Both the position numbers and the translations under genes were made by a program. 64,000 nt of DNA from Synechococcus sp. JA-2-3B'a(2-13). Its GTDB lineage: Bacteria; Cyanobacteriota; Cyanobacteriia; Thermostichales; Thermostichaceae. The DNA is taken from NCBI RefSeq assembly GCF_000013225.1, contig NC_007776.1, positions 2,300,501 through 2,364,500 on the forward strand, read 5' to 3'. Below are positions 51,838 through 58,125 of the stretch, in pieces. A model generated the notes under the pieces. That model saw only the letters and a program-made list of their open reading frames with translations. It made no database searches and was not told the origin of the DNA. Numbering within the stretch: the stretch's first letter is position 1; each line of letters starts with the position of its first letter.

Positions 51838-52308
51838 CTAGTCAGTTTCCGATGAGAGGGCAACCCGCTGCACCGAAGCGCGGGGCAACTGAACTCGCCG
51901 CCCCTTGAGGGATAAGGCAACCCTCTCCTCATCCCGACCCAGCAGGTGTCCTGACCAAACGGCTTTGCCCTTGTAGGGTGGATCCAAGGTCACCTCCACC
52001 GCAAACCCTTTGAAAACCACAAAGTCGCGATCGCTGGTGAGAAGGTTGCTGATGCCAGGGCTGGACACCTCCAACACATACTGGCCTGGGATCAGATCCA
52101 CCCGATCCAGCTCGACTTCCAAGGCTTGGCTCATGGCTTCGCAATCGGCATGGCTGGTTTCTCGGTCGGGATCCAGTGGACGAATATCCACCCGCAGAAC
52201 TGGCGGATGCTGGTTGGTGTGGAAAACCATCTGCACCAACTGGTATCCCAGTTGAGCGGCCAAGGGACGGGCCAAGCTCTCCAACTGTGGAATAAGAGGG
52301 TGAACCAT
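51838..52308 (-). CDS. rimP: ribosome maturation factor RimP
   Basis: RimP assists 30S subunit assembly. The 156-residue form starts MVHPLIPQLESLARPLAAQLGYQLVQ. It has the N-terminal domain with LRVDIRPLDPD...TSHADCEAMSQALEVELDRVD and the VLEVSSPGISNLLTSDRDFVVFKGFAVEV signature, then an SH3-like C-terminal domain. Upstream extension to 52416 lacks homology. It pairs with nusA (136-base gap), the conserved rimP-nusA order. Confidence 0.93.
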   Translation of the reverse strand: MVHPLIPQLESLARPLAAQLGYQLVQMVFHTNQHPPVLRVDIRPLDPDRETSHADCEAMSQALEVELDRVDLIPGQYVLEVSSPGISNLLTSDRDFVVFKGFAVEVTLDPPYKGKAVWSGHLLGRDEERVALSLKGRRVQLPRASVQRVALSSETD

Positions 52309-52609
52309 AACCAACTTGTCACCAACCGGGTGTTGCCGCCAGATCCAAACCCCTTTGAGCCGGAGCCGGCAAAGGGGACAGTAAGCCCCCTCAAAAAGCA
52401 AAGAAGTGGGTACCACCCACTCCCCGTTGCTATCGCGGAGCTCCTTGAGGCTCGCCCAGAATCAGTACAGACTTCGAGCGCATCCCCCCTACCTCCTAAT
52501 TTAGAAGATCTCCTCCGGTTTTGTCATGGGGATCCCCAAAAGGCAACATCTATAATGTGGACAACTGCGGATTTGCCCAGATATCCAGCCGCGTTTTGTG
52601 GGGTTTCCT

Positions 52610-53125
52610 ATGACTGTTGCCTTTTCCTACCCGATCTTCGGCCCCAGCATTCAGTGCCCCCACTGTCGGCAAACGATTGCGGCCCTCACCCTGACCGATA
52701 CCTACCTCTGCCCTCGCCATGGTGCATTTGAGGCGGATGCCGAACAAGAGGAGCTGGTACACCTGCAATCCGGACGGCGCTGGCGCTTTTGGGAAGGTCG
52801 CTGGTTTCGTCAGCACACCCACGCCGATGGGATCCGTTTTGAGATTCATGAAGAATTGGATCGGCTGCGCATGCAAGGAATGCGAGCCACTCAGGTGATC
52901 GTGGCCGAGCGCTACCGCCAGCTGCTCACCCCTTATCTGGAGCAGGGATCCCACCGTCGCCCCGGCCCACCTCGCCTCTATGGCTTGCCCGTCAGCTTCA
53001 GCTCCCAAATCCCAGAGGATAGGGGTGGATCCCCTCAGCGCTGGCGGGTGATCAACTTTGAGCTGACCTACGAGATCGACCCGGCCATGCGGCAGCCGCA
53101 ATCCCGTCTGCAACTGTGTGATTAG
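52610..53125 (+). CDS. cyanobacterial TIGR02652-family protein
   Basis: The 171-residue protein has the family's diagnostic CxxC-x14-CxxH motif near the N-terminus (CPHC ... CPRH). It is followed by FEADAEQEELVHLQSGRRWRFWEGRW, FEIHEELDRLRMQG and a C-terminal strand-rich part. The motif probably binds zinc. The family is confined to cyanobacteria, is about 170 residues long and has no assigned function. The frame opens at 52598, but the ATG at 52610 (MTVAFSYPIFGPS) fits. The IS5-family element lies 64 bases downstream. Confidence 0.8.
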   Translation: MTVAFSYPIFGPSIQCPHCRQTIAALTLTDTYLCPRHGAFEADAEQEELVHLQSGRRWRFWEGRWFRQHTHADGIRFEIHEELDRLRMQGMRATQVIVAERYRQLLTPYLEQGSHRRPGPPRLYGLPVSFSSQIPEDRGGSPQRWRVINFELTYEIDPAMRQPQSRLQLCD

Positions 53126-53207
53126 ACTGTGTGATTAGAAAGGCGAACAGGTAGAGAGCTGTTGGAAAATTGGTGGCTGCTCAAGTCTTCTAGGTTGTGT
53201 TGATCTT

Positions 53208-53615
53208 TCATTTGAGCCAAAAGAGAGCACTGACGAGATAGAGAAAACTCAAGAAGTTCCTGGCCAATTTGTCAAAACGAGAAAATAGATGCCGGTACTG
53301 CTTTAACTTATGAAAAAAGCATTCGATTAAATGCCTCTCTTGATACAGATGCTTGTCATAATGCCGCTGCGTCTTTCTATTCCTTTTAGGCGGAATAACC
53401 GCTTGAGCTTCCCCTATCTTCTCAATCAACTTATCCGCATCATATCCTTTATCCCCAATTACTTTGGTATCCTTTCTCTGCCAGCCCTCTATCAATTCTT
53501 CCCCTTGAGTAATATCGCTCTTTTCTCCGCCAGTTATTCTCAATTCCAGCGGATTTCCCAACCCATCTACACTCACATGAATCTTGGTGCTGTATCCGCC
53601 TCGGCTTCTCCCCAA
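53208..53615 (-). CDS. IS5-family transposase, C-terminal frame (OrfB)
   Basis: This frame supplies the rest of the DDE domain: GRSRGGYSTKIH, the second aspartate in VIGDKGYDADKL and the glutamate in RHLIECFFHKLKQYRHLFSRFDKLARNF. Its true beginning is by frameshift from OrfA at 53627-53633, since GEQALGRSRGG continues the family sequence. The ATG at 53615 is probably not used alone. Confidence 0.85.
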   Translation of the reverse strand: MGRSRGGYSTKIHVSVDGLGNPLELRITGGEKSDITQGEELIEGWQRKDTKVIGDKGYDADKLIEKIGEAQAVIPPKRNRKTQRHYDKHLYQERHLIECFFHKLKQYRHLFSRFDKLARNFLSFLYLVSALFWLK

Positions 53616-53950
53616 AGCTTGCTCCCCTTTTTTCCGGCAGCACAGGAGTGCGCTCGAACCATGGTTGAATCAATAATGAGATGCTCTAAATCAGGGTCGT
53701 CAATAAAATACTTGAACATCCGTTCCCACACTCCAAAACGACTCCACCGGTGGAATCTTTGATAGATGGTGTACCATTTGCCATATCCTTCTGGGAGGTA
53801 GCGCCAAGGAGCACCGGAACGGGCTATCCAAAGAACTGCTTCAATAAACTGTTTGCAGTTTGCTTCTTTCCCAATGTTAACTCTCTCTTCTGTCTGTAAA
53901 AAAGCCAATATCTTCTGCCATTTGTTTTCATCTAAAAAAACCAACTTCAT
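53573..53950 (-). CDS. IS5-family transposase, N-terminal frame (OrfA)
   Basis: The 125-residue frame has the DUF4096-like N-terminal region (KQFIEAVLWIARSGAPWRYLPEGYGKWYTIYQRFHRWSR-type) and the first catalytic aspartate in LIIDSTMVRAH. It runs through the slippery AAAAAAG and ends shortly after in ADTAPRFM. Full transposase would need a -1 frameshift into OrfB. Confidence 0.85.
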   Translation of the reverse strand: MKLVFLDENKWQKILAFLQTEERVNIGKEANCKQFIEAVLWIARSGAPWRYLPEGYGKWYTIYQRFHRWSRFGVWERMFKYFIDDPDLEHLIIDSTMVRAHSCAAGKKGSKLWGEAEADTAPRFM

Positions 53951-54002
53951 CCTCTTTCCTCTATAAATTATTCCCTCTATCCTAACATAAGATCAACACG
54001 AC

Positions 54003-54638
54003 CTAGAACTGGAAGTTTCCTTCCGCGGCGGGAAGCGCCATGCCTTGATAGGTGTAGCCAATGAATCTCGGCTGGTCAGGCATATAAAACCGCTCCAGTT
54101 GCTCAAACCGAAACCCCGCTCCCTGGATCAACCGAGCCATATCTCGGTTTAGGTTGCAGCCATCTGCGATTACCTTTTGTATAGGGTTAAGACAATTTTG
54201 CCATCTTTGCACCTGGGGATCCTCGCTGAGGCCGTGTTCGAGAAAAAACAGCTTTCCCCCTGCTCGCAACACCCGCCTGATCTCTCTCAAAGCCTTGGCC
54301 ACATTAGGAATGCTGCACAATGTCCAGGTGCTAACCACGCTATCAAAACTCTGGCTTGGAAAAGGCAGTTTCTGGGCATCCGCCACCTGCCAATCAACGG
54401 CGATGGGAGAAGAGGCAATGCGCCGACGAGCCAGGGATCCCATGCCGGGATTGGGATCTACCCCTGTGATCTTTCGAATGTGCTCTGGGTAGCAGGATAG
54501 GTTGAGGCCGGTGCCAAAACCAATCTCCAGAACGGATCCCTGCACATGAGCCAGAAGCTGCCGCCGATAGCGCTCCATCCCTTCCCCCGAGAGAGCTAAA
54601 TCCAACAGCCGCGGGAAGATTATTCGGCGATAGAGCAT
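54003..54638 (-). CDS. class I SAM-dependent methyltransferase
   Basis: The 211-residue protein has the SAM-binding motif VLEIGFGTGLNLSCYP, ITGVDPNPGM, ADAQKLPFPSQSFDSVVSTWTLCSI and the post-motif LREIRRVLRAGGKLFFLEHG, as in Methyltransf_11 (UbiE-like) enzymes. The substrate cannot be named. Its TAG stop lies in the CTAG that the IS5-family element duplicated, so the insertion landed exactly at the gene end and left the protein intact. The ATG at 54638 is preferred over a frame start at 54653. Confidence 0.85.
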   Translation of the reverse strand: MLYRRIIFPRLLDLALSGEGMERYRRQLLAHVQGSVLEIGFGTGLNLSCYPEHIRKITGVDPNPGMGSLARRRIASSPIAVDWQVADAQKLPFPSQSFDSVVSTWTLCSIPNVAKALREIRRVLRAGGKLFFLEHGLSEDPQVQRWQNCLNPIQKVIADGCNLNRDMARLIQGAGFRFEQLERFYMPDQPRFIGYTYQGMALPAAEGNFQF

Positions 54639-54806
54639 GCCTCTAACCCCCAAAACCCTGAACTTTGCTGAATTTACTGAGCTTTAGGCGGTTTGGCAAA
54701 AGTCATTGAGAGGGATATAGTAGACCAAGTTTCCCCCTGATCCTTGAGTCCACCGCAACGGTTGCCGGGAAGTGAAGGGGGAAAGCGCTCGGGGGGTATT
54801 CCTCAG

Positions 54807-54930
54807 GGCTTTGCGGGATACCGCCTTCCTGTTTGGACTCCGTCCCGCTGACGCGAACAGAGATAGGCAGGATGCGATCGCTTCTTTCCTGAACCATGTT
54901 CAGGAGAGTTCAGCGTGAATGTATCAGGTT
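54807..54930 (+). mobile_element. diverged right part of the mini-element
   Basis: The sequence shares GCTTTGCGGGATACCGCC, CTGTTTGGACTCC, GTTCAG(G/C)AGAGTTCAGCG and GAATGTATCAG with the right half of the three intact copies, including the inserted 24-mer at the same place. The left half is missing and the rest has many substitutions, so this is an older copy that already carried the 24-mer. Confidence 0.7.
54835..54858 (-). repeat. 24-nt dispersed repeat in the mini-element fragment
   Basis: CGC-GTCA-GCG plus GGAC-GGA-GTCC, fully paired although its host element has diverged. Confidence 0.85.
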
Positions 54931-54969
54931 CATTCGACCATCCCAAATGAATGTTCAGACCTGAGCAGC

Positions 54970-55833
54970 TTAAACCGTCTGGACAGGTTGCGGTTGAGCG
55001 GTCACCTTCAGGGAGTGAAGGGCATAGCAGGCCAGCAACCAATTGAGCAGGCGGGCCACCACGCGAGCAGTTTGCCGTGTTGCGGATCCCACCGCCACCC
55101 CTCCCAGTGAAAGGCCAACCACAGGACGAGCGGCAAAGATGGCCTCACAGGTCTGCAACAGTTGCGGCCAACTCACCCCCCCTGGCTCTGGGTGATGCAC
55201 CGCGGGCGCTAAGGAAGGATCCAGCACACTGCAGTCCACCACCAAAAACACCGGTTGATCCGGCAAAGAGGCCACCACCTGCTGGGGATCCCAGCCATCT
55301 TGGGCCCAGAATATTGGGCTGTGGTGGGCTTTCAGCCATGCGTAGGCGCGCGCACTGCCGCTGCGCAACCCCACATGGATCACCGGCAGCATGTGCTGGT
55401 AGAGCAACTCCACCCAGGCAGCACTGCCATAGCTTGTATCTTGATCCGGCTGGCTCATCTCCGGCGGCGGCATCAGATTGGCATGGGCGCTGCAATGCAC
55501 CACACTCAGAGTTGGGTAGTGCTTCCAAAGGGCACGAATGGCCCCCCAACTGGCAGCCAAGACTGAGGGCAACAGCACCGGCCATTGTTGTCGTCTCCAA
55601 GCTTGAGCCACCGCCGCCTCACACATGCCGTAGGGAGGCTCATCCACCAGCCCCGGCAACTGCGCCACCGCCAGCTTATCCACATCGATCCCCAACCTCG
55701 GCTCGAAGGCACACAGCTCCGAACCGGCATTGAGAATGGCCATCGGAGCCTGAGTATCGTGGCCAAAGGCGGTGGGAATGAGAATGACCCTAGCGTTGGA
55801 TTGCGAGCTGGGATGGAGGGACCACTGGGCCAT
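54970..55833 (-). CDS. ureohydrolase-fold protein with degenerate active site
   Basis: The 287-residue protein has the arginase/agmatinase fold signature, but the Mn-binding motifs are broken. The usual GGDH is replaced by an AASWG-like segment, FDAHxD reads HCSAHANL, the second His-Gly is YG, and SFDxDxxDP reads VVDCSVLDPSLAP. Only the first Asp of the last motif and the LDPSLAPAVHHPEPGG frame remain. It should not be an active arginase, agmatinase or guanidine hydrolase; a regulatory or structural role is possible. The frame is fully open, so it is not simply a pseudogene. Confidence 0.75.
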   Translation of the reverse strand: MAQWSLHPSSQSNARVILIPTAFGHDTQAPMAILNAGSELCAFEPRLGIDVDKLAVAQLPGLVDEPPYGMCEAAVAQAWRRQQWPVLLPSVLAASWGAIRALWKHYPTLSVVHCSAHANLMPPPEMSQPDQDTSYGSAAWVELLYQHMLPVIHVGLRSGSARAYAWLKAHHSPIFWAQDGWDPQQVVASLPDQPVFLVVDCSVLDPSLAPAVHHPEPGGVSWPQLLQTCEAIFAARPVVGLSLGGVAVGSATRQTARVVARLLNWLLACYALHSLKVTAQPQPVQTV

Positions 55834-56067
55834 GGGCGCTGTTCCTTTTCCAGAAAGCTGTGGGTCTCCGGCTTGTTCTATGGTGGCCTACAGGGCGCCC
55901 AGGGATCCGTCTGAGGGCCAGCCAGTCTGCTACGAAAGATTACAGTTCCCAGGCGGAACTGGGGCCAAAAATCGAGTCAGTGGTAGATTCAAAGTGCTTC
56001 GCGCCGCAAACCGCGGTTTGGACAAGGCAAACCACCGCAAACCACAACGAGTTGAGAAAGGTAGACT

Positions 56068-56502
56068 ATGGCTGTGATGGAAGGCGATCCTCGTCAGGGA
56101 GCAAAGCTGCCTCTATTTGGGGGATCCACCGGAGGGCTGTTGAGCGCAGCCGAAACCGAAGAAAAATACGTCATTACCTGGACGGGCAAGCCGGGGCAGG
56201 TGTTTGAAATGCCCACCGGCGGCGCTGCCGAAATGGTGGAAGGCAAAAACTTTCTCACCTTTGCCCGCAAAGAGCAGTGTTTGGCGCTGGGTGCCCAGTT
56301 GAGATCCGACTACAAGATCAACGACTACCAGATCTTCCGCATTCCGGCGGGTGGAGAGCCTGTGTTGGTGCATCCCAAAGATGGCGTTTTTCCTGAGAAG
56401 GTCAACGAAGGCCGTGAGCCCGTCGGCAAAGTGGATCGCAACATCGGCAAAAACAAAGAGCCGATTACCTACAAGTTCACCGGCGGGAAACCCTGGGACT
56501 AA
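56068..56502 (+). CDS. psaD: photosystem I reaction centre subunit II
   Basis: PsaD is the stromal PSI subunit that docks ferredoxin and stabilises PsaC. The 144-residue protein has the family blocks [81 protein letters not shown] and ends KFTGGKPWD. It is a single gene with a strong terminator directly downstream, as expected for a highly expressed transcript. Confidence 0.97.
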
Positions 56503-56525
56503 GTCCAGCGGCCCTTGTCTTGTCG

Positions 56526-56560
56526 GATCCCCTGGTCAATTCAGGGGATCTTTATTTGTT
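56526..56560 (+). terminator. Rho-independent terminator after psaD
   Basis: A perfect 9-bp stem GATCCCCTG/CAGGGGATC with a 7-base loop is followed by TTTATTTGTT, 23 bases after the psaD stop. Confidence 0.85.
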
Positions 56561-56660
56561 CGCGGGCACCTGGTTCTGGAGCGGTTGCCGACGGCCCTCA
56601 CCCCCAGCCCCTCTGCTGTTGCTTGTCCCTTTTGGGAAGAGTCGGGCTGCCCCTGGCGAA

Positions 56661-56690
56661 GAAAAGCCCCAGCCCACCCGGGGCTGGAGC
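56661..56690 (-). terminator. terminator for the peroxiredoxin gene
   Basis: On the minus strand a GC-rich hairpin (AGCCCC/GGGGCT, alternatively CCAGCCC/GGGCTGG) is followed by TTTTC. It lies about 50 bases past the stop of the peroxiredoxin gene. Confidence 0.65.
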
Positions 56691-56736
56691 CATACCCGAA
56701 AAAGCCCGGGATCCCTGAGGCAGGATCTGGGCCAAC

Positions 56737-57345
56737 CTACTTGGCAATCGCCGCGAAGAACTCCTTGGATTTCACTGGGTCGGGGTGCATGGTTTTCTGG
56801 CCGGGCTGCCAGTTGGCCGGGCAAACTTCATCGGGGTGAGATTGCACGTATTGGATAGCTTGCAGGGTGCGCAAGGTTTCATCCACACTGCGGCCAAAGG
56901 CCAGGTTGTTAATGGTGGCGTGCTGGATGATCCCTTCTTTGTCGATGATGAACAGGCCGCGCAGCGCCACACCGGCCTCCGGATCCAGAACATTGTAGGC
57001 AGCGCTGATCTCCTTTTTCAGGTCAGAGACCAGAGGATACCTTAGCTCGCCCACCCCTCCGGCTTTGCGGTCGGTCTGGATCCAGGCCAAGTGAGAGTAT
57101 TCGCTGTCCACCGAGACGCCCAGGATCTCGGTATCCAGCTTGGCAAAGTCGTCATAGCGGTCGCTAAAGGCCGTGATCTCCGTTGGGCAGACAAAGGTGA
57201 AGTCCAAGGGGTAGAAGAACAGCACCACATACTTCTTACCCCGGTAGTCGGAGAGCTTCACCGTCTTGAATTCCATGTCATAGACGGCGGTGGCCGAAAA
57301 ATCGGGAGCGGGCTGCCCCACTCGCAGGCATCCTTCCTGAGACAT
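56737..57345 (-). CDS. 2-Cys peroxiredoxin
   Basis: The enzyme reduces peroxides with electrons from thioredoxin. The 202-residue protein has the peroxidatic Cys53 in [14 protein letters not shown] and the resolving cysteine in [10 protein letters not shown], with the typical 2-Cys spacing and length. [30 protein letters not shown] and the GG...YF-type C-terminal helix ([11 protein letters not shown]) fit plant/cyanobacterial BAS1-like proteins. It is cytosolic and convergent with psaD. Confidence 0.95.
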
Positions 57346-57509
57346 AAATCAACGCTCCTTGCGGTAAAGTGCAAATGTAAACCAAACCTAACATACCATA
57401 CTCATAATGACTCTGCCTTAACTCGATAGATAGCGACGGATCCCAACTGCCGGGATCCGGATAATGCCCATTTTTCCATGCTGATCGGCTCAGCTCTGCA
57501 AGGGATCCC

Positions 57510-57776
57510 ATGAGAGTGGCGCTGGAGTTCCTCTATCACTTTTGTTGTGACCGCTGTCGGCGGTGGTGGAGCCAGGCCGATGTGGAGCCCCAACCTGGGG
57601 ATCGCCTGTATTGCCCCTATTGCGGCCATCAAAATTGCGTGGAGCGCATCGATACCTTTCGCAATGCTGCGCGGGGCAGTTGCCTGACCCGTCCCCCCGA
57701 TGCCCCTTCTCCAGAGCCGCGTCCGCCCTCTGAAAAATCCGGGGATCGGCCTCAGGAGAAGCGATCCCCAATCTAG
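57510..57776 (+). CDS. small zinc-ribbon-like protein
   Basis: The 88-residue protein has two cysteine pairs (CCDRC and CPYCGHQNC) about 20 residues apart in its first half, which could bind one zinc, then a proline-rich disordered tail. No family is recognised. The codon use and position support a real gene, but it is small and could be missed or spurious. Confidence 0.55.
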   Translation: MRVALEFLYHFCCDRCRRWWSQADVEPQPGDRLYCPYCGHQNCVERIDTFRNAARGSCLTRPPDAPSPEPRPPSEKSGDRPQEKRSPI

Positions 57777-57849
57777 TTATCCTGGGCAAGCCGAGTCCTC
57801 TTGCCAAGACACCTTCTACTGCCGCGTGGAAGCCAGCCGCTAGAGCCTG

Positions 57850-58125
57850 TCAACCATTCAACGCATCCGCCAGAGTTCCCCGTTGCGAAGATGACCACAG
57901 GTAGAGGTCAACCTCAGGCGAGGAAGAATCCACCAGATAGCGACAGAGGCGGCGCTCTTCCAGGATGGCGGTGGAGCAGCAGCAACTGTAGACTTCCAGA
58001 TAGTCGTCCGGCTCCGCCTCAAAAATCGCCTGCTGGCCGGGAAAGAGGGTGCGCTCCCAGTGGCCGGGGATCGTTCGGATCACCTGAACCTGTCCGGAAC
58101 GGTTGACAAAAGCGTATCTTTTCAT
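57850..58125 (-). CDS. DUF1830-family protein
   Basis: The 91-residue product fits the cyanobacteria-restricted DUF1830. It has a YAFVNRSGQVQVIRTIPGHWERTLFPGQQAIFEAEPDDYLEVYSCC block and a Cys-rich segment (CCCSTAILEERRLCRY). Function is unknown. It converges on the zinc-ribbon gene and is divergent from glpX, with a 258-base spacer between. Confidence 0.72.
   Translation of the reverse strand: MKRYAFVNRSGQVQVIRTIPGHWERTLFPGQQAIFEAEPDDYLEVYSCCCSTAILEERRLCRYLVDSSSPEVDLYLWSSSQRGTLADALNG

Follow-up and report, generated by a model that had tools for sequence, protein, structure and literature searches.

A metal-less ureohydrolase-fold protein kept by selection in Thermostichales and Gloeobacterales

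Synechococcus sp. JA-2-3B'a(2-13) encodes a protein of the arginase/agmatinase family that has lost two catalytic residues and the greater part of its binuclear metal site, and from which, we infer, normal two-metal hydrolysis of guanidino compounds is not to be expected. As the manganese site was lost and the protein has nevertheless been kept by selection in two lineages, it probably has a different, non-catalytic job. On balance, we favor the view that it is a free-standing metal-free pseudoenzyme, which arose by a one-time loss and acts by binding. The structural and evolutionary part of this statement, taken alone, is held with high confidence, the binding role with less. The gene lies in a stretch of 64,000 nucleotides, referred to as the window, from a genome of 3,046,682 bases.

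Fold and metal site of the window protein

The frame comprises 287 codons from an ATG start, confirming that it is fully open as described in the initial annotation, and the start codon is kept in all eight genomes of family f1. With an E-value of 2.6e-23 and 83.3 bits, compared to a Pfam gathering cut-off of 22, the match of the protein to PF00491 (Arginase) lies far beyond chance. Its score with the NCBIfam agmatinase equivalog TIGR01230 was 73.7 bits, below the curated cut-off of 174.3; judged by NCBIfam scores, the protein is nearer to agmatinases. A structure model, suggested earlier as a check, was calculated with AlphaFold2 using a 16-sequence alignment as input and displayed the three-layer α/β/α arginase fold with a pLDDT of 86.3 and a pTM of 0.88. 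Foldseek and VIA-align matched the model to agmatinases (Z about 30), guanidine hydrolase, metformin hydrolase and arginases with Z values of about 27-31. The best PDB matches were all ureohydrolases, and no closest solved structure was singled out by this search. Model confidence and Z values indicate that the ureohydrolase fold is kept, and the arginase fold of the predicted structure appears intact.

In rat arginase numbering, the metal ligands of the family are H101, D124, H126, D128, D232 and D234, and the catalytic residues are H141 and E277. The corresponding positions were determined in an alignment with 24 intact cyanobacterial family members and are given below.

54970-55833, minus strand: ureohydrolase-fold pseudoenzyme ORF, 287 aa; ATG at 55833-55831, stop at 54970-54972
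55558-55560, minus strand: residue 92 Leu, equivalent of H101; GGDH motif replaced by LPSVLAAS (alignment)
55489-55491, minus strand: residue 115 Ser, equivalent of D124 (alignment)
55483-55485, minus strand: residue 117 His, equivalent of H126, kept (alignment)
55477-55479, minus strand: residue 119 Asn, equivalent of D128 (alignment)
55420-55422, minus strand: residue 138 Ser, approximate equivalent of H141; variable loop, exact residue uncertain (alignment)
55234-55236, minus strand: residue 200 Asp, equivalent of D232, kept (alignment)
55228-55230, minus strand: residue 202 Ser, equivalent of D234 (alignment)
55177-55188, minus strand: EPGG, residues 216-219, family-conserved and kept (alignment)
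55099-55101, minus strand: residue 245 Gly, equivalent of the active-site Glu E277 (alignment)

At the ligand positions, H-D-H-D-D-D is found in all 24 intact sequences but L-S-H-N-D-S in the window protein. Exactly four of the six ligands are thus replaced (H101 by Leu, D124 by Ser, D128 by Asn and D234 by Ser), where at least four had been proposed, while H126 and D232 are kept. Both catalytic residues are exchanged as well, H141 for Ser and E277 for Gly. Two details of the initial annotation need correction. The ligand losses deduced from its list of replaced motifs hold, but YG belongs to the region of H141 and marks a catalytic position, not a ligand. Of the fold signature HHPEPGG, EPGG alone is conserved in the family.

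Distribution, ancestry and selection

Orthologues with an open frame were found in all nine Thermostichales genomes, with 45-97% identity to the window protein, and open frames were also present in six genomes of the Gloeobacterales. When 388 genomes of the class were searched with the single protein, matches were obtained only in Thermostichales, in family f14 (Gloeobacterales) and in G201, the latter being a protein with an intact metal site. Among the sampled cyanobacteria, no orthologue was found outside Thermostichales and the Gloeobacter family. A profile of the 16 metal-less proteins scored its own members at 330-466 bits and the next best protein of the class at no more than 191 bits; in a phylum-wide sample, intact proteins of other classes reached up to 251 bits. 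Maximum-likelihood trees placed the 16 metal-less proteins on one side of a branch with support values of 100/100 and 100/99.9.

None of the 16 clade members carries the six ligands of a catalytic ureohydrolase, three to five being lost in each. D124, D128 and H141 are lost throughout. H101 is kept in 3, H126 in 11, D232 in 15 and D234 in 1 of the 16 proteins, and no metal ligand is kept in all of them; the five members without H126 have R, C, Y or S at this position. Shifted residues as substitute ligands, an explanation considered from the outset, were rejected, as no acidic or His residue is conserved near the lost positions in the clade. One supported clade and the loss of D124, D128 and H141 in every member suggest that inactivation was probably one old event, in or before the common ancestor of Thermostichales and Gloeobacterales. 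By parsimony, applied to the tree and the shared losses, one early loss of the metal cluster followed by lineage-specific drift of the remaining ligands would be the simplest reading.

The nearest intact relatives found are eight further agmatinase-like proteins from other classes of the phylum (L125-L132), which score 215-251 bits with the profile. Like the metal-less members from Gloeobacterales, they have an IFWARD-type motif and a C-terminus of the KLxGYKF type, but they differ from them in that the HDHDDD ligands, H141 and E277 are all in place. The Gloeobacterales genome G113, which has a contamination estimate of 8%, contains two metal-less copies (loci L077 and L078). One G113 copy, L024, keeps GGEH as well as D234 and branches first in the clade. 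A partial homologue in another Gloeobacterales genome (G065, L079:6415-6747) is cut by the contig end. In this protein, D234 is replaced by His and EPGG by VPGG, the active-site Glu is kept, and it is perhaps an intermediate.

Pairwise dN/dS values of the metal-less gene within the genus were 0.10-0.18 (NG86: 0.096-0.176; YN00: 0.111-0.181); the intact paralogue in these genomes gave 0.03-0.12. Close Gloeobacter pairs gave 0.11-0.22 for the metal-less gene. The gene is under clear purifying selection, which is weaker than that on the intact enzyme since its dN/dS is about two to three times that of the paralogue. Open frames in nine of nine genomes of the order together with dN/dS values of about 0.10-0.18 indicate that the gene is not decaying, and a chance or decaying frame was rejected on the grounds of dN/dS and distribution. 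Purifying selection on an open frame without catalytic residues is what characterizes a retained pseudoenzyme. The orthologue and dN/dS analyses called for in the initial annotation therefore support its central proposal, a conserved pseudoenzyme without a metal site, through order-wide orthologues, purifying selection, a monophyletic clade reaching into Gloeobacterales and the lack of shifted ligands; an open frame in this strain only, one of its two counter-scenarios, is contradicted by the nine genomes.

Among the residues that the clade conserves and that its intact agmatinase-like relatives seldom carry are F43, P67, E72, R100, W103, K104, W176, G245 and R261. Glu72, Arg100, Trp103 and Lys104 are clade-specific and invariant, and Trp176 is near-invariant. 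At the former metal and active site, H117, D200 and G245 are present in all eight and S115 and N119 in seven of the eight family f1 genomes, in which 113 of 275 positions are invariant overall. The steady former-ligand positions and the clade-specific residues would fit a repurposed pocket or surface, as far as so small a sample may tell.

Gene neighborhood and other ureohydrolase genes

In family f1, the metal-less gene and its head-to-head neighbor psaD are separated by a common intergenic region.

56068-56502, plus strand: psaD (photosystem I subunit II), head-to-head neighbor in eight family f1 genomes
55834-56067, no strand assigned: divergent intergenic region common to the metal-less gene and psaD, with the block TGCTACGAAAGATTACAG at 55928-55945 conserved in eight genomes

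A block within this region, TGCNACGAAANATTACAG, is near-identical in eight genomes. The conserved block at 55928-55945 is a candidate for a site possibly serving as shared promoter or regulator site. Scanning the region for promoters yielded no useful signal upstream of the metal-less gene, and an Rfam search of positions 52000-58000 returned no riboswitch or other RNA match. Genes of arginine or agmatine metabolism were not recognised directly beside the metal-less gene in the neighborhoods inspected. Elsewhere in the window, two overlapping frames of 125 aa (DUF4096 transposase domain) and 135 aa at 53208-53950 on the minus strand resemble a single IS4/5-type transposase spread over two frames.

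In G001, which represents a sister genus, and in Gloeobacterales, the head-to-head neighbor is not psaD but a protein of 127-148 aa (L066:7946-8389 and the Gloeobacterales loci L072, L073, L074, L075, L076 and L077); at one of the G113 loci, the contig end leaves no more than its start visible. Homologues of this neighbor occur in 50 of 59 sampled cyanobacteria and are located elsewhere in most family f1 genomes. It has no Pfam match above threshold. Weak DnaD-like hints came from PDB entry 2zc2 (E 0.048), from PF07261 (E 0.03) and from two weak Foldseek matches, both DnaD, and its structure model is of low confidence (pLDDT 57.8). Conservation of this gene pair across the deep split supports orthology between the metal-less proteins of both lineages. 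At six loci of the Gloeobacter family, a gene of the sodium:dicarboxylate symporter family (SDF) is located directly downstream on the same strand (L072:5398-6720 and equivalents in L073-L076 and L078). A link with the symporter was rejected, because the two genes are paired in the Gloeobacter family only; Thermostichales genomes yielded no SDF gene, which makes the link a local one. Since the neighbors differ by lineage, being psaD, the DnaD-like protein or the SDF symporter, genomic context gives no single function.

The search for an intact paralogue, likewise recommended in the initial annotation, revealed one intact ureohydrolase in the source genome. L001 is an agmatinase-like protein of 307 aa with a complete metal site (GGEHS, DAHCD, DVDGLDP), located about 0.5 Mb from the metal-less gene. 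It shares Pfam family and genome with the window protein but differs in its complete metal site and belongs to a different clade. L001 is probably CYB_1744, to which it was matched by the length of 307 aa and which is the only arginase-type protein listed for JA-2-3B'a(2-13) in a survey from 2007 (PMC2242806). The same survey, the only match for Gloeobacter and agmatinase among the papers searched, lists no arginase-type enzyme for Gloeobacter violaceus (PMC2242806). The metal-less protein is the sole PF00491 match in five genomes of the Gloeobacter family (G020, G039, G052, G075 and G085). Because of these five genomes, regulating or completing an intact homologue was ruled out as the general function, although it is possible within Thermostichales. 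The tentative assignment as a regulator is thereby narrowed: a general dependence on an intact paralogue does not hold, and nothing found here speaks directly for a role in regulating the metabolism of arginine, agmatine or guanidine.

Other family members of the order have decayed. A guanidine-hydrolase-type gene outside the window (G000:C1:2651177-2651809; L139, L141) is a pseudogene in the source genome owing to an internal deletion, which joins query residues 1-35 to 217-392 and removes 36-216. The gene is full-length in G006, G008, G002, G003 and G001, split in G005 and without a match in G004 and G007, and its metal site is intact in the relatives. As it is broken, split or unmatched within the same genus, the metal-less gene has been kept where a metal-competent family member was lost. 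Another decayed ureohydrolase of the intact type is a 130-aa agmatinase-like remnant with its middle part missing (L062; G001:C1:1698144-1698371).

Known metal-less ureohydrolases and possible roles

Metal-less ureohydrolases are already known; what distinguishes the cyanobacterial clade is its age and that it has no obligatory intact relative. The arginase-like protein of Trypanosoma brucei (TbARG) is listed as inactive in the literature (PMC10820115). The title of its PDB entries (4rhi and others) names a quadruple mutant S149D/R151H/S153D/S226D, implying S, R, S and S in the wild type at positions that, going by this title, are taken to be the equivalents of D124, H126, D128 and D234. Like TbARG as far as it is described there, the cyanobacterial proteins combine an arginase fold with the lack of a two-metal cluster, and the metal-less protein of G001 reads S-R-G-S at the corresponding positions. 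TbARG is eukaryotic, whereas the window protein is nearer to agmatinases and keeps H126. Metal loss in the two cases is read as convergent, implying no shared ancestry of the loss. In a Fusobacterium ornithine decarboxylase/arginase, the arginase domain lost its function through sequence divergence according to a title cited in PMC11271267; this domain is fused to a decarboxylase, whereas the window protein is free-standing. Another bacterial precedent is the beta subunit of metformin hydrolase (MetCb, also MefH beta or MfmB), which has a ureohydrolase fold with five of six ligands changed and contains no metal (PMC11271267). The window-protein model matched metformin hydrolase chains with a Z of about 29.7, which does not distinguish them from other family members.

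Following this precedent (PMC11271267, PMC11399263), the window protein might be an inactive subunit or regulator that assembles with the intact agmatinase-like protein of the genome and shapes its activity, and L001 would be an available partner. We regard this analogy as unlikely to hold. The gene for MetCb lies beside that of its active partner, and MetCb functions solely as part of a heterohexamer; the metal-less gene is not adjacent to L001, no other PF00491 gene lies beside it in the neighborhoods inspected, a fully supported branch sets its clade apart from the intact paralogues, and five carrier genomes have no other PF00491 protein at all. That the emptied pocket catalyzes a different, metal-free reaction might be read from the polar S/H/N/D/S set conserved at the former ligand positions in family f1 and from the clade-specific invariant residues. 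We consider such a new enzyme quite improbable, because the former ligand positions differ between lineages and no single polar set is common to the 16 proteins, unlike a conserved catalytic site.

Even less weight is given to the idea that one metal ion is still bound by His117, Asp200 and other residues, with weak or altered hydrolase activity. Retention of the H126 and D232 equivalents in 11 and 15 of 16 proteins would be in line with it, but no ligand is common to all members, five of them have R, C, Y or S in place of H126, and neither D124 nor D128 survives in any. The least credible alternative, already largely refuted, is that the gene is a functionless remnant in slow decay. Its dN/dS above that of the intact paralogue and the restriction to Thermostichales and the Gloeobacter family among sampled cyanobacteria would suit a remnant, yet dN/dS is well below 1, all nine Thermostichales genomes and six from Gloeobacterales have open frames, and invariant residues persist across a very deep split.

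The preferred reading, a free-standing pseudoenzyme acting by binding, would start from an intact agmatinase-like ancestor, of the type that other classes of the phylum still possess, which would have been inactivated a single time, no later than in the common ancestor of the two orders. The present protein would act alone and metal-free by binding, a step of which we are less sure. Binding could take place in the former active-site pocket, which has become polar and metal-free (Ser115/His117/Asn119/Asp200/Ser202), or at a putative clade-specific surface with Glu72, Arg100, Trp103, Lys104 and Trp176. The bound partner may be a small nitrogen-rich metabolite or a protein, and binding may tune a process other than arginine hydrolysis. 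In its more specific form, namely a pseudoenzyme whose site was lost a single time, before Gloeobacterales and Thermostichales diverged, and which is now a sensor or effector for guanidino or amino compounds (or has another metal-free function) independently of intact ureohydrolases, the proposal is a tentative one, with the odds somewhat against it.

So far, metal-less ureohydrolases are known from isolated examples, of which the one understood best functions only when built into an active enzyme as a subunit. A clade dating from an early cyanobacterial split, with five genomes lacking an active relative, would mean, if the proposal is true, that the arginase fold can persist for a purely non-catalytic job. 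In reconstructions of the arginine pathway of early-branching cyanobacteria, such genes should not be annotated as agmatinase or arginase.
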